Program-made: the position numbers and the translations under genes
Origin: Actinomycetes bacterium
GTDB lineage: Bacteria > Actinomycetota > Acidimicrobiia > Acidimicrobiales > Palsa-688
Direction of reading: 5' to 3'
DNA: 53,746 nucleotides
NCBI GenBank assembly: GCA_021811865.1
Contig: JAKAQB010000019.1
Span: forward strand, 1 to 53,746
Shown: positions 10,114 to 27,562 of the stretch, piece by piece
Layout of the letters: each line of letters starts with the position of its first letter
Numbering within the stretch: position 1 is the stretch's first letter
The notes under the pieces: generated by a model
The model's database searches: none
Told to the model about the DNA's origin: nothing
The model's input: only the letters and a program-made list of their open reading frames with translations

Positions 10114-12066
10114 GTGGGCATCGTCGACGAGGACATCGCCCGCGTCCGCGCCGCTACCGACTTCGTGGCCCTCGTCTCCGAGCACCTGGCCCTTCGGCGC
10201 GTCGGCACCCGCTGGGTCGGCCTCTGCCCGTTCCACACCGAGAAGACGCCGTCGTTGTACGTGAACGCCGCCGAGGGCCTGTACCACTGCTTCGGCTGCC
10301 AGGCCAGCGGCGACGTCATCACCTTCGTGCGGGAGCTTGAGCACCTCGACTTCGTCGAAGCCGTCGAGAAGCTGGCCGCCCGGGCAGGGATCACCCTGCG
10401 CTACGACGACGAGGCGACGGCACGCGACCACCGGCAGCGGGCCCGCATCTACGACGTCGTCGCCGGTGCCGTGGAGTGGTACCACGCCCAGCTGATCGAC
10501 GCTCCCGGCGCGGCGGCGGCGCGCCGCTACCTGCGGGCAGAGCGGGGCTACGACGGCGAGGTGGTGCGGCGCTACCGGCTCGGCTGGGCGCCTGACGGCT
10601 GGGAGCCCCTGCGGCGGGCGCTGCGCCTCCCCCAGGCGGCGCTCGTCGACGCCGGCCTGGGCTCCCTCGACGGGCAGGGGCGGTACCGGGACTTCTTCCG
10701 CTCCCGGCTGCTGTTCCCGATCTTCGACCCGAGCGACCGGCCGATCGGTGCTGGCGGCCGCTCGCTGCCCGGAGGCAGGCCGCCCAAGTACAAGAACACG
10801 ACGGGGACGGCCGTCTACGACAAGAGCAGCGTCTTGTACGGGCTCAACTGGGCCAAGCGGGCGATCGTCGCCGGCGACCGGGTTGTGGTCTGCGAGGGCT
10901 ACACCGACGTCATCGGCTTGCAGCGCGCCGGGGTCGACGAGGCGGTGGCGACGTGCGGCACGGCCCTCGCCGACGGCCACCTCCGGCTGCTCACCAAGTT
11001 CGCCCACCGCGTCGTGCTCGCCTACGACGCCGACGCCGCCGGCCAGGCGGCGGCGGAGCGCATCCAGGACTGGGAGCGACGCTACGGCGTCGACGTCCGG
11101 GTGGCAGCCCTACCGTCGGGCGAGGACCCTGCCGACGTCGCGCGCCGCGACCCCGCCCTGCTGCAGCGGGCGATCGCCGGGGCCCAGCCCCTCGTCGGCT
11201 TCCAGCTGGCGCGCCACTTCGGCCGGGCCGACCTCGCCAGCCCCGAGGGCCGGGTGAGGGCGGCGAGGGGAGCCTTGGCGGTCGTCCCCGAGGGATTGGA
11301 CCCGCTGGTGCGCGACCAGTACCTGATGGAGATCGCGGATCGGACCCGCATCCCTCCCGACGAGCTCCGCCGGCTGCGGGCGGCACCGGCCGAGGCACAC
11401 CGCCAGCCGGAGGCGGCCCGATCCCGCCGGTCAGGTGCCGGGCAGCGGGCGGTGCCCGACCGATCGCCTGAGGAGGAGCACCGGCCGCTGCGGGGCTCGG
11501 GCGGGCAGGGGCAGTCCCCGACGGCAGCGGGGACAGCGGGCACGCCACGGCCGGCGCCGGAACGATCGATGCCCGCTGCGGAACTGGCGGCGCTGACCCT
11601 CGCAGTGCACCAACCCGGCGACGTCGCCGACCGCCTGGAGCGCTGCTTGCTGTCCCACCCGTTGGCTCGGGCGGTCTACGACCAGCTGGCGTGCTCCGAC
11701 ACCCTCGCCGCTGCGGTGCAGACATCGCCGCCCGAGGTGGGCCGCCTGCTGGCAGAGCTGGCCGTGACGGAGCCCGAGAGCTCGGCTGACGACGTGATGG
11801 TGCGGGTGGTCGAGCTCGCCGGCCAGCGTGCGGTGGCCGAGCTGCAAGCCGAGCTGCGCGCCGCGCCAAGCGAGGACGCCCCCGCGTACGTCGACAACAT
11901 CGCCTGGCTCAAGCTGGCGGTCGAGGCGCTGCGGCCGGGCTCGCCGTCGGGGGCCGCCGCTGCGTCGGAGGCGGAGCGTCGCTTGGTAGCTTGGTTCGTG
12001 GCCCGACAATCGCCCGGCCCGCTGGACGCCGGCGAGCAGGCAGAGCCGACGGGGGGGAGCGGATGA
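10114..12066 (+). CDS. dnaG: DNA primase
   Basis: DnaG synthesises RNA primers at the replication fork. The product has 650 residues from the GTG at 10114, which follows a GGGGGGAG stretch. The N-terminal CHC2 zinc finger uses C38, H41, C59 and C62 (CPFH and CFGC). The TOPRIM core has [12 protein letters not shown] (catalytic Glu) and YDADAAG (the D-x-D pair). Residues ~440-500 form a basic, low-complexity linker before the C-terminal helicase-binding part. The stop overlaps the sigma factor start as ATGA, so dnaG and the sigma gene are coupled, recalling the classical macromolecular-synthesis operon. Confidence 0.97.
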
Positions 12067-13861: not shown

Positions 13862-13934
13862 TCCGGGGTAGCTCAACCGGCAGAGCGGGTGGCTGTTAAC
13901 CACTAGGTTGGGGGTTCGAGTCCCTCCCCCGGAG
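13862..13934 (+). tRNA. tRNA-Asn (GTT)
   Basis: A full cloverleaf folds: acceptor TCCGGGG with CCCCGGA, D arm GCTC/GAGC, anticodon arm GGTGG/CCACT with loop CTGTTAA (anticodon GTT), and T arm GGGGG/CCCTC with TTCGAGT. No CCA is encoded; GCGCC follows. A TAGGGT -10 element lies 11 bases upstream. Confidence 0.97.
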
Positions 13935-13935
13935 C

Positions 13936-14600: not shown

Positions 14601-14963
14601 TCAGGGTGGAGAGCGTCGGATGCGGATCAGATCGTGAGTCACGATCGCCAGCGCTCCTCCAAGGCCGTCGAGGTCGCCGGCGGCGATCAGCGTCATGAGG
14701 GTTGCGTGCGTTGCTGCTCGGCTTTCGTCGATCGGGCGGGGGACGACGATCCCGCAGTGCGTGCCGATGGGGTAGGCGCGAAGGTCGGAGAAGTCCAGGT
14801 CCAGCGTCACAAGGACCCGATTCTCGGACACGGCGGCCGCCACCACGATCTCGTCGGGCTGACCGGCGAGATCCTCGTCAAAGACGGTGTCGGCGTCATG
14901 GCCGGCCTCGAGGAAAATGTTGGTGGCCAGGTGAGGGAGGTTCTCGTCGAGCTTGAACCTCAC
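14601..14963 (-). CDS. DUF5615-family PIN-like toxin
   Basis: This is a small PIN-like nuclease of the DUF5615 (Mut7-C-like) group, normally the toxin of a pair with a DUF433 antitoxin. From the GTG at 14963 it has 120 residues. VRFKLDENLPHLATNIFLEA at the start and LVTLDLDFSDLR in the centre carry the acidic residues of the family. A longer frame starts at 15014. The GTG is preferred because it aligns with the family N terminus and lies seven bases after the stop of the decayed DUF433-like frame. The toxin itself appears intact. Confidence 0.8.
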   Translation of the reverse strand: MRFKLDENLPHLATNIFLEAGHDADTVFDEDLAGQPDEIVVAAAVSENRVLVTLDLDFSDLRAYPIGTHCGIVVPRPIDESRAATHATLMTLIAAGDLDGLGGALAIVTHDLIRIRRSPP

Positions 14964-14970
14964 TGGCTCG

Positions 14971-15132
14971 TTAGCGGGCGACGGGCGCCAGCCGATGGAC
15001 CTCTTGGCGAGCAAGCCACGAGCCGTAGGCCAGCGCCCCCCGGATGCCTTCGACGGTCAGCGAACAGAGCAGGACGGAGAGCTGTCGCGTCCCAACGCCA
15101 GTCCCAACAAGACCGTCCCGACGCGTCCTGGG
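14971..15132 (-). pseudogene. Decayed DUF433-type antitoxin, C-terminal part
   Basis: Immediately upstream of the toxin, one minus-strand frame ends LTVEGIRGALAYGSWLARQE, which fits the C-terminal helices of DUF433 antitoxins. The preceding part, GRVGTVLLGLALGRD, lies in another frame. The N-terminal DNA-binding half is not found before the acyl-CoA dehydrogenase gene ends at 15173. I infer a frameshifted, truncated antitoxin. The match is by eye on short segments. Confidence 0.35.
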
Positions 15133-16553: not shown

Positions 16554-17003
16554 TCAGGGCTGACTGACCACGACCCTCGCCGCGCCCTGCAGCACGATCA
16601 CGTCGACGTCCCGCCCCATCGGCTGGCCGACGTAGCAGGTGTCCTCTGTGCGCTTCGCCCGGCTGGTCTGCGGGCACAGCCGGGCGGTCATGCGGGTGTG
16701 GAGGCGGCCGTGCCCGTCGGTCTTCACCGTCACCGATCCGTGGGCGCACGGGTCCTTGGGGGCGATCCACACCTTGGCGCCGCACTCCGCCAGGGTGACC
16801 CTCGTGCCGGCCGGGAAGCCCCAGCCGCTGACGACGAGCCGGCGGCCGGCCATGGCGTGGCTCGGCGTGACGGTGAGGTGCGGGTGCGGCGGGGAGGCGG
16901 CGACCGACGGTGTGGCGCCCGACGGTGTGGCGCCGAGACCGGTGGCCAGGGCCGTGACGGCTACGGCGACGGCGCAGGCGAGGACGGCGGGGCGGGTGCG
17001 CAT
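16554..17003 (-). CDS. Secreted protein with Ig-like/neocarzinostatin-type fold
   Basis: The product has 149 residues. From the ATG at 17003 it has an Arg-start signal peptide (MRTRPAVLACAVAVAVTALA) and a short Ala/Pro linker. One beta-sandwich-like domain follows: LTVTPSHAMAGRRLVVSGWG, then GTRVTLAECG, with four cysteines that could pair. The phrase V-SGxGFxxGTxVTLAxC resembles the neocarzinostatin-family chromophore-binding fold. The longer frame back to 17201 runs through antisense tRNA sequence and is discarded. Function unknown; extracellular by inference. Confidence 0.7.
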   Translation of the reverse strand: MRTRPAVLACAVAVAVTALATGLGATPSGATPSVAASPPHPHLTVTPSHAMAGRRLVVSGWGFPAGTRVTLAECGAKVWIAPKDPCAHGSVTVKTDGHGRLHTRMTARLCPQTSRAKRTEDTCYVGQPMGRDVDVIVLQGAARVVVSQP

Positions 17004-17107
17004 CGAAGCGTTGGACGCCGGCGTGAGGGCGTTGGTTCCCGGCGCCGCCGGATGAAGGCGCCGGCGGGTGGGGCGACCCCTTACTATGCCCTGCATGAGC
17101 AGGGTAA

Positions 17108-17183
17108 GGGCCCGTAGCTCAGTGGTCAGAGCAGGGGACTCATAATCCCTCGGTCGTGGGTTCGATCCCCACCGGGCCCACCA
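17108..17183 (+). tRNA. tRNA-Ile2 (CAT anticodon, probably lysidine-modified)
   Basis: Perfect cloverleaf: acceptor GGGCCCG/CGGGCCC, D arm GCTC/GAGC, anticodon stem GGGGA/TCCCT with loop CTCATAA, T arm GTGGG/CCCAC. The CAT anticodon could mean Met. The body (GACTCATAATC, then GGTCG) resembles bacterial tRNA-Ile2, read as AUA after TilS modification. Unlike the other two tRNAs here, this one encodes its CCA (17181-17183). Confidence 0.9.
17139..17178 (+). repeat. Left copy of tRNA 3'-end direct repeat (attachment-site-like)
   Basis: These 40 bases of tRNA-Ile2, from the anticodon loop to the acceptor stem, recur at 18327-18366 with one mismatch (17144 A versus 18332 G). The last 34 are identical. 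This is the geometry of a site-specific integration into the 3' end of a tRNA gene. Confidence 0.85.
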
Positions 17184-17276
17184 GCCAGCCAAAACGCCCA
17201 ATGGGCCATGGGGCGCAGCCCGAAGGATCCGTCGTTGTTCTGCCGAGGGTAGGCCCTACTTGTGGGTGTCGAGCGG

Positions 17277-17489
17277 CTATGCCGGGGCGACTATCCGGAG
17301 AACATGGGCAGGAAAAGAGATGTCCGACTCGTCCAGAGCCTCTCCAGAAGGGCCGTGGACCGGTACGCGCACGACGGCGGACCTGCGAAGGGGAGGGCCG
17401 TACACTTCGCGCACGACGCCGACGATCTCGTCCAGCCCCCACGGCACTGCCACCTTGTCGCCGGGTTTCAGCGTGACTTGTCGTGCCAT
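17277..17489 (-). CDS. Small beta-barrel-like protein of unknown function
   Basis: The 70-residue product begins MARQVTLKPGDKVAVPWGLD and continues with EIVGVVREVYG and RVPV. Alternating hydrophobic strands and LKPGDKVAVPWG suggest a KOW/SH3-like small barrel. A GGAG lies six bases before the ATG. It is the last gene of a three-gene minus-strand run with the HEPN gene, inside the tRNA-bounded segment. Not recognised as any named family. Confidence 0.6.
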   Translation of the reverse strand: MARQVTLKPGDKVAVPWGLDEIVGVVREVYGPPLRRSAVVRVPVHGPSGEALDESDISFPAHVLRIVAPA

Positions 17490-17499
17490 CCAAAGCTCC

Positions 17500-17616
17500 T
17501 CACCAAGGCCCCGGCCGGTCGAACAGACGACCGAGATGTTGGGATACCTCCGCGTCGAGGTTACCCGCCAGGACGTCGAGGTCCCGCCGCCACTGCTGGT
17601 AGGTCCGCAACGTCAA
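17500..17616 (-). CDS. 38-residue ORF coupled to the HEPN gene
   Basis: A TTG at 17616 overlaps the HEPN stop (TTGA) and opens a 38-codon frame ending 10 bases before the next gene. It reads LTLRTYQQWRRDLDVLAGNL, then DAEVSQHLGRLFDRPGPW, and is amphipathic. Third codon positions are mostly G or C. The overlap and the tight spacing to the next gene argue for a real coupled small gene. Function unknown. Confidence 0.4.
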   Translation of the reverse strand: MTLRTYQQWRRDLDVLAGNLDAEVSQHLGRLFDRPGPW

Positions 17617-18092
17617 CGGGTGGCCTCGGCACGCAGGACAGCCAAAGCGGCCTCGTCGTCGTGGGCCACCGCGTTGCGGGCGGCGTTCAGCCGGTCCAGG
17701 GATCGGTTGTGGACAGTCGACGATGGGTCGCGGGCGGCCAGTGTCGACCAGAGGTCCAGCCCGAAGCGACCGAAGTCGCTGCCCAGCGAGCCGGGGTGGG
17801 CGTTGCCCCGATCAAGGCTACGAGCTTCCCGAAGCCTGGTGCGGACGACCGACTCGATCACCGGCCGGGTCGCGGCTGTCCAGGAGGCGAACGTGTCGCA
17901 GGCCAGGTCGTGGAGGTCTCGAGCGAAACCCTGGAACTCGGCCGCCAGGCGCAGGACCAGGGCCTCGTTCAACGCCGCTGTTCGCCATCTCCGCCCCGGG
18001 CCGGTGCCTCCCACGGGCCGATGGGCGACCGCCAGCTCGTCCAGCCGGCCGGCCCGGCGACTACGCCACGATTCAAGGGCCTCTGAGCTCAC
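17613..18092 (-). CDS. HEPN-domain protein (RiboL-PSP-HEPN-like)
   Basis: From the GTG at 18092 the product has 159 residues. Helices run through LNEALVLRLAAEFQGFARDL and LACDTF. The C-terminal RLNAARNAVAHDDEAALAVL contains R-x4-H (RNAVAH), the ribonuclease signature of HEPN domains. In related proteins such domains act as RNases in anti-phage or stress responses; that role here is inferred. TACGGT is eight bases upstream of the GTG, suggesting a leaderless transcript. An in-frame extension to 18194 is low-complexity and unlikely. It is the main gene of the segment flanked by the tRNA-Ile2 repeats. Confidence 0.65.
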   Translation of the reverse strand: MSSEALESWRSRRAGRLDELAVAHRPVGGTGPGRRWRTAALNEALVLRLAAEFQGFARDLHDLACDTFASWTAATRPVIESVVRTRLREARSLDRGNAHPGSLGSDFGRFGLDLWSTLAARDPSSTVHNRSLDRLNAARNAVAHDDEAALAVLRAEATR

Positions 18093-18326
18093 ATGTCGGC
18101 ACCGTAGTGCCCCCCTCGGACTCGCCAGCGGATCGGGAGCCGATCGCTCGGCTGTTCCACGGGCAAGGGGTGGACCCAACAAGCCACCCAACAAAGCCGT
18201 GCCCCCCGCCCCCCCGTCCCCGGCGGTCCCTTGCCGTAGCGCTCACCGGGCGAAGGGCTGCCTGTGACCAGCCTGGATGCCACGCGCTGCGACGAGGCTG
18301 GAGCTGCTGCCACCTCTCTGTCCGGC

Positions 18327-18366
18327 CTCATGATCCCTCGGTCGTGGGTTCGATCCCCACCGGGCC
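18327..18366 (+). repeat. Right copy of tRNA 3'-end direct repeat (displaced tRNA end)
   Basis: This matches 39 of 40 bases of tRNA-Ile2 positions 17139-17178. It then diverges: the acceptor stem lacks one C and no CCA follows (ACGG). It looks like the original chromosomal tRNA end displaced by insertion of 1188 bases. Confidence 0.85.
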
Positions 18367-18534
18367 ACGGTCTCACCGGACTCACGGGCGGGTCGGTTCA
18401 AGGCGATCCAGGCGATCGTGGTCAGCTCCGACGGGGCCGCCAGCCACGGTCAGGCGCGCAAGCACGACCAGGCGGAGGCGCAGCAGCACGGCGAGGAGGA
18501 CGGGGACCAGCCGGGCTCACAGGGGCCGTCGTGA
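18367..18534 (+). pseudogene. Coding-like 3' fragment next to the right repeat
   Basis: Directly after the repeat one frame stays open to a TGA at 18532-18534 with almost every third base G or C. It reads ATVSPDSRAGRFKAIQAIVV, then a hydrophilic Gln/His/Glu tail ending GSQGPS. It has no start of its own, so it looks like the 3' end of a gene cut by the insertion. I do not recognise the protein. Confidence 0.35.
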
Positions 18535-18613
18535 GCCGGCTCCGCCGGCAGCTCGCCGCGAGATCGCCAAACGGGACGTACCGGCCCTGAGCGGAACCCA
18601 AGCGCCGGGTTCG

Positions 18614-18670
18614 TCGCGTTGTTTGGGCAGTACGCCGCGATGATCGCGGACTACTGCCCAAACAACGCGA
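18614..18670. repeat. 57-base near-perfect hairpin
   Basis: Arms of 19 bases (18614-18632 and 18652-18670) are perfectly complementary. Inside, CCGCGAT and ATCGCGG form a second stem, with two unpaired positions between and a one-base loop. It spans the last codons and stop of the SCP2-hydrolase gene. It may be a transcription terminator for that gene, though no T tract is present, or a mobile palindromic element. Confidence 0.75.
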
Positions 18671-23686: not shown

Positions 23687-23759
23687 GGGCGTTTAGCTCA
23701 GTTGGCAGAGCGCCGGCCTTACAAGCCGGTGGCCGGGGGTTCGAGTCCCTCAACGCCCA
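23687..23759 (+). tRNA. tRNA-Val (TAC)
   Basis: Acceptor GGGCGTT/AACGCCC, D arm GCTC/GAGC, anticodon stem CCGGC/GCCGG with loop CTTACAA (anticodon TAC), and a T arm with TTCGAGT. No CCA is encoded. TACGAT nine bases upstream is the likely -10. Confidence 0.97.
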
Positions 23760-23910
23760 CTTTCTTGTCACGGCGCGAGAACTCTGGCAAAGTCCCGTCT
23801 TGCCAGCAGGGTCGGCCAGCCGCCGAGCGCGGGGCCGAATCGTCACGTCGAGCTGGTTGCGCGGCCACGGAAGGTAGCCCGGCACTGGGCCGTAGGCGAC
23901 CAGGGACTTC

Positions 23911-24750
23911 TCAGTCCGCCCCTTCTGGGTCAGCGAGGCGTCGGACGGCGAACTTGAAGGACTCCTTCGACAAGACGCGGCGCTGCGCCTCGGCAGGGTC
24001 GTCCAGGAGCTCACCGACCAAGAGGCAGCGGACCACCCAGCGGAGCGCCTGATCATGCCGGTGTCGCTGCGCATGTGACAGCGTTCTCCGGCTCCCGGCA
24101 TTGCCGTGGGCTACCGGGACCCTGAGAGAGAGGATGTTGGCGCAGAAGGCCGGCTCTGCCTCCAGGATCGCCCGACCGACCTTGCCAGGGGCAGCAAGTA
24201 GCTCAGCCACCACCTCCTTCAATGGCTTCCTGTTGGCACTGGAGAGAACCCGCCTGGCCCAGTCGCAAATGCCGACGTCTACTCCAGCGGCGACGGCCAC
24301 GTTGTGCACAGCTTCCACGCCCTTGGTGTGCTCGGCGTTGGGTGCCTGCGCGTTGAAGTCCTCTTCGTTGAGAAGGCTCGGTGGGTTGAGCTACGGGGGC
24401 AGGTAGTCGAGCTCGAATGCGATCGCGTCGAAGGCATCTGCGTCGAGGTGTCGCCCGGACACCCCACCCTCAACTAGGAAGGTGGTCTTTGAGTCCGTGC
24501 CCGACCAGGAGGACTCCACGCCATGCACAGCGAACAGGGTGATGTCGTCGCCTGCATTGGTGTGGCCGTGGACGACGCGATAGACGACCTGCCTCAGGCC
24601 ACGTCTTGGCCCTTGCGCATCGTCCGGCCGCGACAGAGAGCCGTACACGGTGAGCGCGGCATCCCCACCCTGGAAGCTGAATGATCCCGGCACTGCCTCC
24701 TCGACGCGCCCAGGTAGCCACCAGCGTCCTTCTGCTGAGAGGTTGTCCAT
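23911..24750 (-). pseudogene. ApeA-like HEPN defence gene with one in-frame stop
   Basis: One minus-strand frame runs from the ATG at 24750 to 23911, interrupted only by a TAG at 24393-24391 (codon 120). The N-terminal part, EGRWWLPGRVEEAVPGSF, and VVHGHTNAGDDITLFAVHGV resemble the ApeA N-terminal domain. It ends AFELDYLPP, where related proteins tend to have Trp, so the TAG may be a mutated TGG. The C-terminal part resumes in the same frame: NPPSLLNEEDFNAQAP, then DVGICDWARRVLSSANRKPL and LRVPVAHG, whose R-x4-H is the HEPN RNase motif. At ~279 codons it is shorter than typical ApeA. Family members abort phage infection. Confidence 0.55.
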
Positions 24751-24849
24751 CGTCGGCAATGATCGCGCCGGGATGCGACGCCTACGAAAGACGGACAATG
24801 GCCACCTGTTCGTTGATGGCGGACGTTCACGCTACGGCCCCACGCCCGG

Positions 24850-24855
24850 TACGCT
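24850..24855 (+). promoter_or_regulatory. Putative -10 element of the mntA-hepT transcript
   Basis: TACGCT is six bases before the mntA GTG, so the mRNA would be leaderless. TTCACG at 24826-24831, 18 bases further upstream, could serve as the -35. Confidence 0.45.
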
Positions 24856-24861
24856 TCGGAC

Positions 24862-25161
24862 GTGGCCCGAGCCGTACCTACGATCGACGCCCTGCGGGGC
24901 CGCCGGGAGGCGATCTTGGCCGCCGCTCTTCGTCGTCACGCGTCGAGGGTGCGGGTTTTCGGGTCGGTCGCCCGAGGCGATGCCGGACCGTCCAGCGACG
25001 TCGATCTCCTCGTTGACTTCGAGGCGGAGGCGTCGCTCCTCGATCAGGTGGGGCTCACCCAGGATCTGGAAGCCTTGCTGCAGATGCCCGTCGACGTGAT
25101 CTCGACCGGGGCTCTCCGACCGCGCCATCACCGAATCAGCGAGGAAGCGATCGATCTATGA
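24862..25161 (+). CDS. mntA: MntA-type nucleotidyltransferase antitoxin
   Basis: A 99-residue minimal nucleotidyltransferase that neutralises the HEPN toxin HepT by transferring AMP to it. The catalytic GS-x10-D-x-D motif is complete: GSVARGDAGPSSDVDLLVDF. The C-terminal half includes LTQDLEALLQMPVDVIS. The GTG start has a -10-like TACGCT six bases upstream. The stop overlaps the hepT ATG as ATGA, so the pair is translationally coupled. Confidence 0.9.
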   Translation: MARAVPTIDALRGRREAILAAALRRHASRVRVFGSVARGDAGPSSDVDLLVDFEAEASLLDQVGLTQDLEALLQMPVDVISTGALRPRHHRISEEAIDL

Positions 25162-25580
25162 CGGCCGCTCGCCGGAACTTCGATGACCTCTTGGAAGACT
25201 TGGCCGAAGCCGTCGACGCGGCCGCCGAGCTGGTTGCCCTCGGCAAGGATCGCTGGGAGGGCGAACGGCCGCTCCGCCTCGCAGGCGAGGCAGTGGTCGG
25301 ACGCCTCGGCGACATCGCAACGAAGCTCCCGATGGACCTCGTCGCTGGAACGAGTGAGCTGCCTTGGGCTGAGATCAAAGGCATGCGGATCGTTGTTGAC
25401 CACGCGTACCACGGCATCGATTACGAGCGAGTCTGGCGAACGCTTCGCGACGACGTACCTGAGCTGGGTCGTGTCGTGCAGAGATGGATCGCCGCACAGC
25501 GCGGTAGCGAGATCGGGCTTCCCTACAGGGAACGGGAAAGATCGCGAGATAGAGGGGACGACCTGGGGATGGGTTTGTAG
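25158..25580 (+). CDS. hepT: HepT-type HEPN ribonuclease toxin
   Basis: A 140-residue all-helical HEPN toxin of the MntA-HepT system. The R-x4-H-x-Y signature is present: R77, H82 and Y84 in IKGMRIVVDHAYHGIDYERV. R and H are the RNase residues, and the tyrosine is the position that MntA adenylylates in characterised pairs. The last ~25 residues are highly charged. The gene appears intact and follows its antitoxin directly. Its 3' end overlaps by ~58 bases the opposite-strand HTH frame. Confidence 0.88.
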   Translation: MTAARRNFDDLLEDLAEAVDAAAELVALGKDRWEGERPLRLAGEAVVGRLGDIATKLPMDLVAGTSELPWAEIKGMRIVVDHAYHGIDYERVWRTLRDDVPELGRVVQRWIAAQRGSEIGLPYRERERSRDRGDDLGMGL

Positions 25581-26044
25581 ATCACTGGTGCCGAGATCGA
25601 CGGGATTGCTGTTTGTTGCGTGAGGTCGAGGCCTTCCTTGTGTGGCACCATCGATTGGTGGTCTGTACGTCGCCGACCTTTTGGCCGGAGGGTGACGCCA
25701 GCGTCTTTCAAGGCGCGCCGGACGGTGCTCGCCGCCCCGCCCAACTGCGCAGCCACCGAATCGGCCGACTGACCCTCGGCGTAGAGCCGGGCGGCCCGAT
25801 CCGCCTCGTCGCCCTGGAGCGCCCTGCGATCCCGCTTCGGGACGCCGTGGCGTCGAACATGCCCGAGCACCGTCGTCCGGTTCACACCGAACGACGTCGC
25901 CAGCCCCTCGACGGGGACACCCCGCCGGTAAGCAGTCTGGTGCTGCCCGGCGGGCTCGCCTTCGCGTTCGCCCTCCTCTCGCTGCCAGTTTCCGGCTCGG
26001 CGTGCATGGCGAGTGGCGGCCCCGGACGCCAGACGGTCATCCAC
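25523..26044 (-). CDS. HTH protein, likely C-terminal part of a recombinase
   Basis: The 173-residue frame holds two helix-turn-helix repeats: YRRGVPVEGLATSFGVNRTT followed by VLGHVRRHGVP, and LYAEGQSADSVAAQLGGAAS followed by TVRRALKDAGV. This tandem HTH with an RxHGVP turn is typical of the DNA-binding tail of serine-recombinase-like or transposon proteins. No catalytic recombinase domain is found upstream, so it may be a fragment. The start is uncertain, and the last ~50 codons beyond KGRRR may be non-functional. Confidence 0.5.
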   Translation of the reverse strand: MDDRLASGAATRHARRAGNWQREEGEREGEPAGQHQTAYRRGVPVEGLATSFGVNRTTVLGHVRRHGVPKRDRRALQGDEADRAARLYAEGQSADSVAAQLGGAASTVRRALKDAGVTLRPKGRRRTDHQSMVPHKEGLDLTQQTAIPSISAPVIYKPIPRSSPLSRDLSRSL

Positions 26045-26153
26045 TGCACCACGACAGGCCTCGCACTGCCTTCAGGCCGAGGCCCGTTCCCGCGGCGGCG
26101 CTGCTTGCGAGGCTGCGAGGTCCCAGACCGGGGAGTTTGGCCGCAGGCGACGA

Positions 26154-26175
26154 TTAGGCGTATAGTTAGGCGTAT
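26154..26175 (+). promoter_or_regulatory. Paired TTAGGCGTAT repeats with -10 element before antitoxin
   Basis: TTAGGCGTAT occurs at 26154-26163 and 26166-26175, a 12-base period, the second copy running into the start codon. TATAGT (26161-26166) is a good -10 placed seven bases before the ATG. This fits a leaderless, antitoxin-autoregulated operon with the repeats as operator half-sites. Confidence 0.55.
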
Positions 26176-26428
26176 GCCACGGCTGCAGGTCTATCTTCCC
26201 GACGAGCTGTATCGCGTCGTCAAGGAGCGCCAACTCCCCGCATCAGAGCTCCTACAGGGCGCGGTTCGCACGGAGTTGCGACGCCGTGCGCTCCTCGAGG
26301 AGACGGACCGCTACCTGTCCGAGCTGGTTGACGAAGTGGGAGAGCCTTCGCCTGCATCGGTGGGACGAGCCGAACGGCTAGTCCAGCGCGTATGCGGAGG
26401 GAATGACGGCTCGCCCAAGGCGAGGTGA
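26174..26428 (+). CDS. VapB-like antitoxin
   Basis: An 84-residue protein starting MPRLQVYLPDELYRVVKERQ, a ribbon-helix-helix-type DNA-binding start, then LPASELLQGAVRTELRRRAL and an extended C-terminal tail for toxin binding. Its stop overlaps the PIN toxin GTG (GTGA). Repeats over the start codon suggest autoregulation. The partner toxin carries a premature stop, so this may be an orphan antitoxin. Confidence 0.75.
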   Translation: MPRLQVYLPDELYRVVKERQLPASELLQGAVRTELRRRALLEETDRYLSELVDEVGEPSPASVGRAERLVQRVCGGNDGSPKAR

Positions 26429-26811
26429 AGGTGTTGGTCCTCGACTCCGGGGGAGTGAGCTTCCTCGCCAAGCGGAACCAGGAGGCAGTCGCCACCATCC
26501 GCGCGCTGGTCAGAGAGTGAGAGTGGCCACCGCTGGTTCCATCCGTTGTCCTTGTCGAGTCGGTCTCGGGACGCCAGCGCGACGACGCCCCGGCGAACCG
26601 GCTGCTCAAGACCTGCGACGTCAGGGAGGAACTGGCAGTGCCGCTCGCTCGCCGCGCAGGCGGGCTCCGACACCGCGCCCGGCGTGGCTCCGCTGTCGAT
26701 GCCATCGTCGTTGCCAGTGCCGAGCCGGGAGGCGTCGTCCTCTCCGGTGACGTCGAGGATCTCGGAGCACTCGCGTCTTACGCCAAAGGCGTCCGCGTCG
26801 AGCGGATCTGA
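26425..26811 (+). pseudogene. VapC-type PIN toxin with one premature TGA
   Basis: From GTG 26425 the frame reads VKVLVLDSGGVSFLAKRNQE, then AVATIRALVRE, and meets TGA at 26518-26520 (codon 32). The same frame continues without further stops as EWPPLVPSVVLVESVSGRQR, then SAVDAIVVASAEPGGVVLSG, then DVEDL to the natural TGA at 26811. All four acidic PIN positions (D7, the Glu of VLVE, the Asp of SAVDAI, and the Asp pair of SGDVED) are kept. A single nonsense change thus separates it from a 128-residue VapC RNase. It follows its antitoxin by overlap. Confidence 0.75.
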
Positions 26812-27148
26812 GGTCGCCCATAATCTCCAGCAGCTGGCTGGCTACCCGCGCCCCCGGCCGCCGGTTGTCGAGCGCAGAACGACGACAACAGGCGAGGATC
26901 TTCAGCGCTCGGTACCCGGCATGGGGCCGATCGGGGCTTTCTGGGTTCATCGTCGGCAGCGAGGACGAGATCCTCGATCTCGGTGTTGACCGGCTGGTCA
27001 GGTTCCCGAGATTGTTCGCCTTCGAGCTGGACGTGCTCGTCGCGGCCGGCTTCGACGTCGTGGCGACGTTCTGCAGCCCGCACGTGGGGTCGATACTGTA
27101 GGAGCCTCCAAACAGAGCATTCGCAATGCGGCACCGCACGACCGGTGG
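26812..27148. other. Intergenic stretch with a possible gene remnant
   Basis: No secure gene. A plus frame from TTG 26865 to 27101 ends SEDEILDLGVDRLVRFPRLF, then AFELDVLVAAGFDVVATFCS and PHVGSIL, with strong GC at third positions. It looks like the C terminus of a lost gene. I cannot name it. Confidence 0.3.
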
Positions 27149-27562
27149 TCACGGCGTCGGGATCGTTTGGAAACGCTGCCTCCCGCGATACCGGTAGATC
27201 TGAAAGTCAGTATCGAGGGTGAAGATCCGCCGGTCACCGCGCTCCTCTGCCAGCGCCACGAGGGTGGCGTCCGCCAGGTCCATCGGTCGATCCGCGTACT
27301 GGTTCATCAACCGAGCGCTCCGGTTGACGGCGGATGGCGAGAGGTCTGCGACGACGAGACGGTCAGATGACATGAGGCGCCAGAGCGCTTGCTGAGCCCG
27401 AATGCCACCGGCGCGAGCGAGCAGGTACATCGCTTCGGTGAACGCCGGCCAAGTCGTGACGAGCGGGAGGGTCAGCTGATCGAGCGCATCCACGCACGAA
27501 GTGTGATCGGGTTCGTCGGCATCGATGATCGCGATGAGCGGCCCCGCGTCGGCGAGCGTCAC
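27149..27562 (-). CDS. VapC-type PIN-domain toxin
   Basis: A 137-residue PIN-domain ribonuclease. Acidic residues sit in the expected places: MTLADAGPLIAIIDADEPDH, TTWPAFTEAMYLL, MDLADATLVALAEE and FTLDTDFQIYR. The C terminus GRQRFQTIPTP is common in this subgroup. The GTG start overlaps the antitoxin stop by four bases. Unlike the neighbouring VapC, the frame is intact, so this pair should be functional. Confidence 0.85.
   Translation of the reverse strand: MTLADAGPLIAIIDADEPDHTSCVDALDQLTLPLVTTWPAFTEAMYLLARAGGIRAQQALWRLMSSDRLVVADLSPSAVNRSARLMNQYADRPMDLADATLVALAEERGDRRIFTLDTDFQIYRYRGRQRFQTIPTP

Follow-up and report, generated by a model that had tools for sequence, protein, structure and literature searches.

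The tRNA(CAT) locus and its displaced copy

The window, by which we mean the whole 53.7-kb stretch and to which all coordinates given without a genome name refer, carries an intact tRNA(CAT) gene on the forward strand (17108-17183), which is the target gene of the element described here. ARAGORN calls it tRNA-Met and the Rfam tRNA model matches it at 74 bits; tRNA-Ile2, the earlier identification, is a plausible identity. Its 3' half forms the left copy of a 43-nt att repeat that runs from the anticodon loop to the acceptor stem (17136-17178, forward strand), and a repeat search places the displaced right copy 1188 nt away on the same strand (18324-18366) at 95% identity. An earlier, sequence-only reading of this DNA had described such a duplication of the tRNA 3' half, with CCA on the intact left tRNA and not on the right copy, and the sequence ends agree: the left tRNA is complete and ends in CCA, and the right copy, truncated at its 3' end, terminates in GGGCC followed by ACGG.

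That reading took the loss of CCA for a trace of the native tRNA end, but a deletion scar fits best. In G678, the closest relative found, the right copy has GGGCCCACCA at the place where the window copy lost CCA, and 3.6 kb with MFS, HTH and BrkB/YihY-like genes (Pfam) follow. Of these 3.6 kb the window retains, directly after its right copy, no more than the final ~45 codons of the BrkB/YihY-like gene that is complete in G678 (18394-18534, forward strand). Because G678 keeps them, the missing CCA and one missing acceptor base are best read as removed by a ~3.6-kb deletion that started in the right repeat. Just outside the element, at the end of a hydrolase gene, lies a near-perfect 28-nt inverted repeat with a 1-nt loop (18614-18670). 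On the other side, adjoining the tRNA, a secreted-looking protein with weak similarity to neocarzinostatin and other enediyne chromoproteins (16554-17055) is conserved in G678.

No integrase was found, in keeping with the original description of the segment: for the tyrosine-integrase family studied here, a family profile matched none of the ORFs of the whole window, and tblastn matched nothing between 12001 and 24000. Inside the right end, the element has a feature absent from that description, a paired heptamer CCCAACA-N5-CCCAACA (18175-18193, forward strand) that we predict to be an arm-type integrase-binding pair. It is followed by a spacer (18194-18323, forward strand) that can be aligned with the right ends at the same tRNA in three relatives, G647, G678 and G661. 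In all, the locus supports a site-specifically inserted, integrase-less element.

A HEPN gene and its small-barrel partner

The cargo was first described as three coupled minus-strand genes, of which two remain. The N-terminal ~158 codons of a HEPN gene (17613-18089, minus strand) contain the reported R-x4-H motif in the form R-N-x3-H, within the R-x4-6-H pattern of HEPN superfamily RNases, and the C-terminal part lies in another frame (17500-17616, minus strand), where it had been taken for a separate 38-residue ORF. The seven best intact homologues (P0002-P0008; five of 197 aa, the others of 192 and 196 aa) align over their last ~38 residues, in all seven cases, with the other-frame product of 17500-17616. 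Because of this match, the window HEPN gene is, as assembled, apparently broken by a frameshift near 17613-17625, through mutation or assembly error.

Our search returned 418 HEPN relatives at E<=1e-3 among 2461 candidates. R139, N140 and H144 are invariant across 38 aligned homologues, only two of which match PF18735 (best E 7e-5; window protein at E 0.24), and a PDB search gave no match at E<=1. In the genome collection the relatives occupy 35 loci, all in Actinomycetota, to which one viral-contig record is added (L036, IMG/VR). Their distribution is patchy (6 of the 395 genomes in the class of G001), and plasmids hold three relatives at 37-38% identity.

Downstream of HEPN lies a gene for a 70-aa small barrel protein (17277-17489, minus strand) with the pattern PGDxVxVPFG...GxVxxV. 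Co-occurrence of this protein with the HEPN family had been proposed as a check, and 35 of the 36 loci indeed have the barrel after HEPN; the locus without it, L030, breaks off 168 nt past its HEPN match. Profiles trained on half of the rows and scored on unseen loci recovered 27 of 28 and 26 of 27 of them, with no match in control stretches 3 kb further on and one extra match upstream of HEPN (L026). A barrel-like fold had been guessed for this protein, and profile searches across family members place it among the nucleic-acid-binding small KOW/SH3-like barrels: one search gave ribosomal L24 at E 0.0014 and NusG more weakly, and among 19 members the PriA 3'BD was matched by 14, the ProQ C-terminal domain by 10 and Spt5 KOW2 by 7, at best E values of 1e-6 to 1e-4, the window protein itself matching none. 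In several loci the barrel continues into a longer protein (L019 and L013, both 10585-11187; also L004, L005, L009 and L010). The longer protein of L019 matches the Mrr_cat restriction endonuclease just above the cut-off, and the C-terminal part of that of L013 matches nothing.

The gene layout and the HEPN motif lead us to infer a toxin-antitoxin-type pair, in which HEPN would be a candidate RNase and the barrel a candidate antitoxin or target-binding partner. Two small genes, overlapping or adjacent and conserved together, are what a type II toxin-antitoxin module requires, and this is the arrangement seen. The window HEPN and barrel proteins differ from known type II modules in that no Pfam, NCBIfam or PADLOC model matches either above its cut-off; the pair is conserved and uncharacterised across Actinomycetota. 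In four loci HEPN starts shortly after a tyrosine-integrase ORF (12 nt in L001, 53 nt in L003, 48 nt in L023 and L036), which in L001, L003 and L036 is a Pfam Phage_integrase, and therefore the HEPN-barrel pair travels with such elements.

The same tRNA locus in relatives

Searches of the order and the family yielded relatives with the same tRNA beside the same acyl-CoA dehydrogenase gene (Pfam). The left flank of G678 is 90.3% identical to the window over 1078 nt; close to the element, G678 matches 17000-17182, left of the tRNA, at 92% and 18394-18620, to the right, at 85%. The cargo of its element, which measures 979 nt, is a DUF433/DUF5615 pair (Pfam E 8e-23 and 6e-23) enclosed by the repeats. 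In G647 the tRNA is identical, its second copy follows 905 nt away, and DUF433/DUF5615 is once more the cargo between them; in G661 an integrase gene lies directly after the same tRNA, together with a pSAM2-type RepSA gene. Other cargo between the same repeats in relatives, which the sequence-only reading had suggested looking for, was thus found. A single copy of the tRNA 3' half was seen in G676, G679, G672 and G633, in stretches with 2.5-7.2 kb on the 3' side, and also in G681, where only 0.9 kb of that side is covered; a repeat shared by all members, which had been named as evidence against insertion, is not the pattern here. The hoped-for empty site in close relatives did not appear: a search of 32 family genomes found no locus with these flanks and an exactly unoccupied tRNA.

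The right end, the sequence that precedes the displaced tRNA copy, is common to the window, G647 (with a variant of the pair), G678 and G661, and its divergence can be set against that of the flanks. The right end of the window is 62.8% identical to that of G678, 66.7% to G661 and 65.7% to G647. Because the right ends of the window and G678 are 62.8% identical and their flanks 85-90%, one occupant has probably been replaced since the two split. One right end of G661 is 86.2% identical to that of G678, with flanks at 79.2%. For G647 and G678, the figures are 82.3% in the cargo, 79.4% in the flanks and 60.1% in the right ends. Our reading is that close relatives have swapped the occupant of this site, for which the integrases of resident or incoming helper elements would be the simplest agent.

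A near-constant right-end geometry

Of 337 genomes, 25 have relatives of the G661 integrase, at 32 places in all. The 3' end of a tRNA faces int on the same strand in 28 of 30 integrase loci, with one in the opposite direction and one cut, and the tRNAs concerned are those for Thr, Arg, Lys, Val, CAT, Ile, Gln and Glu. Upstream of int, a CCAA...CCAA search matched 22 of the 30 loci, and by reading several others have close variants. Of 26 integrase stretches, one of which has no tRNA at its start and many of which are on contigs that end early, 5 yielded a right copy. In all five the pair lies 142-157 nt before the copy (two by strict search, three by reading and a looser search). One of these five elements, at tRNA-Gln, has a CCCTAC variant of the pair at both ends. 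Among plasmids, 95 records carry distant integrases, the matches listed being 25-28% identical.

The pair alone was found at 25 places in 14 of 32 family genomes, including four that look like coding-sequence coincidences (L360, L362, L368, L369); the reversed pattern gave 5, four of them in one genome. The full right-end pattern, with lengths of 149-181 nt allowed, was found at 47 places in 28 of 377 genomes and its reverse at 3, and 42 of the 47 matches fall within 169-174 nt. One of these places (G559:C78:205) was left out of later parsing. Fifty-three right ends were parsed, and five without a tRNA core (the second of G611:C14, and those of G425, G422, G306 and G555) were dropped. The 48 that remain have a tRNA-like core and come from 30 genomes, counting the window. 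From the start of the pair to the T-loop is a distance of 162-166 nt in 45 of them; it is 171 nt in the window, 175 nt in G387 and 169 nt in one right end of G583. By eye, nearly all cores start at the anticodon loop, where one class of tRNA-targeting integrases is expected to cross over. We infer that the integrases studied here use the heptamer pair as their arm-type binding site.

Two other search strategies proved unsuitable. The right-end spacer alone gave only matches of 21-43 nt, in 14 of 397 genomes, and it is unfit for distant right ends because it missed the known ones of G647 and G661:C474. The exact arm-pair pattern matched at least 120 stretches of viral contigs and was discarded as unspecific.

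At a threshold of 13 of 14 letters, the pair occurs in the window at 15091 and 18175 only. The first (15091-15109, forward strand, 13 of 14 letters) adjoins a truncated DUF433 gene and belongs to a second, decayed element at tRNA-Asn (13862-13935) with a DUF5615 gene (14601-14966, minus strand). No second tRNA-Asn copy was seen in the window. Downstream of tRNA-Val, at 23687-27562, lies a further toxin-antitoxin-type run (MNT 24880-25161, HepT 25158-25580, PIN 27149-27562), with neither a second tRNA copy nor an arm pair.

A family of small integrase-less cassettes

A matching tRNA is present on the contig for 20 of the 48 right ends, and omission of G557:C44, where the tRNA matched itself, leaves 19 elements. 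Seven of these have an integrase match (only an N-terminal piece in G371:C2) and 12, window included, have none; the elements were chosen for carrying the motif, so that these proportions are not an unbiased survey, and absence means absence by tblastn with one query and by ORF reading, which could miss other kinds of integrase in elements longer than 2 kb. Seven of the 12 integrase-less elements measure 1.25 kb or less. Besides the window element (1188 nt, HEPN and barrel) and the DUF433/DUF5615 elements of G647 and G678 at the same tRNA(CAT), they are G312 (839 nt, tRNA-Gln; two open frames that resemble the YefM/YoeB pair identified by Pfam in G312:C55), G509 (797 nt, tRNA-Arg; YefM/YoeB), G684 (1181 nt, tRNA-Thr; Unstab_antitox with a partner without Pfam match) and G371 (1213 nt, no clear gene). 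With the window and G684 counted, a toxin-antitoxin-type pair is present in six of the seven, so that their cargo is mostly toxin-antitoxin-like. The longer integrase-less elements carry AAA/DUF4143, AAA_16, AlbA_2 or unknown genes.

Right ends also follow one another within 1.8-2.3 kb, in tandem, in G583:C15 (with an integrase-like piece between them), G583:C39 (at different tRNAs), G371:C10 and G001:C61. In L308, L400, L402, L407, L409 and L413, right copies are followed immediately by the start of another integrase-like frame, as stacked elements. In G387 (L304, 15289-16718), two copies of a tRNA-Thr 3' half enclose a 1.4-kb VapB/PIN segment; the second copy has no arm pair, so that other kinds of small tRNA-flanked segment may exist.

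The left ends divide the elements. All eight integrase elements have an arm pair +37 to +59 nt after the tRNA, at a score that none of 60 shuffles reached. Such a pair is absent from 11 of the 12 integrase-less elements tested, a set in which G619:C219, whose right copy was not seen, replaces the second G371:C10 element. The exception, G371:C10, keeps 12 of 14 letters at +39, and single left half-sites remain in two of the longer integrase-less elements, G599 and G001:C78, at +59 and +62. The pair being missing in 11 of 12 suggests that the integrase-less elements lost their left end together with int.

Comparison with known elements

Integrase-less att-flanked elements have been described before, so that the claim of there being no described example can stand at most for the minimal form. 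CIMEs are att-flanked relics of integrative elements without integration or transfer genes, and can occur in tandem (review, PMC5704250). The window element likewise is flanked by attL/attR repeats and has neither integration nor transfer genes. It and its sisters differ from CIMEs in their size of 0.8-1.2 kb, a toxin-antitoxin-type pair as sole cargo, the loss of one arm pair and their occurrence at several different tRNAs; the flanking repeats of the window element have an arm pair on the right only. Mobilisation by accretion, which in a CIME relies on functional attL and attR, would here have to do without the left arm pair. In Dehalococcoides, 15 ssrA islands lack an integration module and stand in tandem with integrase-bearing islands at one RNA gene, much like the elements here, but they use a serine recombinase and carry other cargo (PMC3146451). 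AICEs, the pSAM2-type integrative elements of Actinobacteria, share the tRNA 3'-end target, and the G661 element combines a tyrosine integrase with a pSAM2-type RepSA; unlike them, the window element has no int, rep or tra (PMC3218068). The tyrosine integrase of its own that marks an AICE or IME is thus missing from it. CALINs and MITE "hitchers" also rely on a recombinase in trans, although these recombinases are of other kinds and MITEs hold no protein genes (PMC11389934). The cargo of sister elements resembles known type II modules (YefM/YoeB, VapBC, DUF433/DUF5615, MNT/HepT; Pfam).

Among the papers listed by a search of the open-licence literature, none concerned ~1-kb integrase-less toxin-antitoxin cassettes at tRNA genes. 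As far as that literature reaches, what is new is the one-armed ~1-kb form with toxin-antitoxin-type cargo at several tRNAs, as well as the near-constant right-end geometry and the HEPN-barrel pair.

Mobile cassette or relic?

We consider it likely, with a probability of about two in three, that we are dealing with a non-autonomous cassette that entered a tRNA gene and is kin to the integrase-bearing elements found in its lineage, with occupants of the site exchanged by helpers. Judging by the comparison with those elements, the attachment core would lie between the anticodon loop and the tRNA 3' end and be recombined by a tyrosine integrase of their family, which the paired heptamer, some 140-150 nt in from the right end, would guide. 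The cassette would have kept this right end, arm pair and core, after its left end had gone with arm pair and int, and the remaining two-gene toxin-antitoxin-type cargo probably holds it in place. Occupants would be swapped between close relatives through the integrases of resident or incoming helpers. The window copy would by now be decaying, with its HEPN gene broken and its right repeat truncated. Such elements would be CIME-like, with occasional exchange by a helper integrase. Mobilisation in trans, which the sequence-only reading had proposed, is plausible in that the right end is common to integrase-bearing elements, and one-armed forms might move in this way. Against this, 11 of 12 integrase-less elements have no left arm pair, which all 8 integrase elements possess, so that the former may be unable to excise in the canonical manner.

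Several observations sit uneasily with this reading. The half-sites and the one near-complete left pair point to decay, not to a designed one-armed form. The cargo of G647 and G678 has diverged about as much as their flanks, compatible with vertical descent of the pair, and right ends may simply diverge fast, as the 60.1% between these two would allow. The distance from pair to core in the window is 171 nt where 162-166 is usual.

The same observations are the core of the main competing explanation, that these are immobile fossils, independent deletion relics of integrase elements in which the toxin-antitoxin pair punishes loss and nothing has moved since int was lost. The missing left arms in 11 of 12, the half-sites of G599 and G001:C78 and the 12 of 14 letters in G371:C10 fit this history, as do the broken window copy and the parallel divergence of cargo and flanks in G647 and G678. 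So does an integrase element of G387 that has DUF433 beside its right arm; the tRNA-Asn element of the window is 82.6% identical over 373 nt to the toxin-antitoxin genes at that right end. Yet identity in the closest pair is 62.8% for the right ends and 85-90% for the flanks, a gap that points to a renewed insertion or a replacement, provided that right ends do not diverge fast. One right end of G661 is more like that of G678 (86.2%) than the flanks are (79.2%), and one YefM/YoeB unit, 77-78% identical, is found at both tRNA-Gln and tRNA-Arg sites. We therefore judge the fossil explanation to be unlikely, if the most serious of the rivals.

A phage satellite carrying a defence module, akin to the satellite-like defence element first proposed, is very improbable. 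HEPN proteins have been linked to defence, according to a paper on the HEPN superfamily, and one homologue locus (L036) comes from IMG/VR. However, neither of the two cargo genes is one for packaging or helper interference, the window HEPN piece has no match in 50,697 phage records at E 1e-5, and PADLOC models do not match the cargo. The G661 integrase has no relative in viral contigs, in a single-sequence query that would reach close relatives only. In addition, of two elements of the helper type, that of G661 has RepSA and that of G539 a TrwC relaxase. The term satellite is not supported.

The other two explanations fare worse. Ordinary duplication of a tRNA 3' end, or homologous recombination between tRNA fragments that trapped two genes by chance, would account for the near-exact repeat, which is all that the window alone shows, but very improbably for a near-constant distance between arm pair and core over many tRNAs and genomes and at the right ends of integrase elements. 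An integron-like cassette folded as single strand at an attC-like hairpin, a thought invited by the short cargo and the successive right ends in G583, G371 and G001, is rejected as scarcely credible, in that shuffled versions fold as well as the right end itself (z 1.19; 181 of 200 at least equal it) and the associated integrases are of a tRNA-adjacent phage type, not shown to be IntI.

Our preferred reading, the helper-dependent cassette, could be carried further. It is possible, though we put it forward only tentatively, that one-armed mini-elements of 0.8-1.2 kb with a toxin-antitoxin pair are repeatedly moved in trans between tRNA genes by the integrases of resident elements and so form exchangeable or tandem cassettes, and that HEPN-barrel is a new toxin-antitoxin-type module. 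If true, this would be a tRNA-based counterpart of integrase-less cassette arrays.

The analysis provides a signature by which very small integrase-dependent islands can be recognised: in 45 of 48 right ends the T-loop of the tRNA 3' half comes 162-166 nt after the start of a paired heptamer. A second outcome is the definition of a gene pair, HEPN and small barrel, that is uncharacterised and occurs across Actinomycetota. The cargo of the smallest islands seen, up to 1.25 kb, is mostly toxin-antitoxin-like (six of seven), which raises a testable question: do toxin-antitoxin modules move with helpers, or are they the last remnant of eroded islands?
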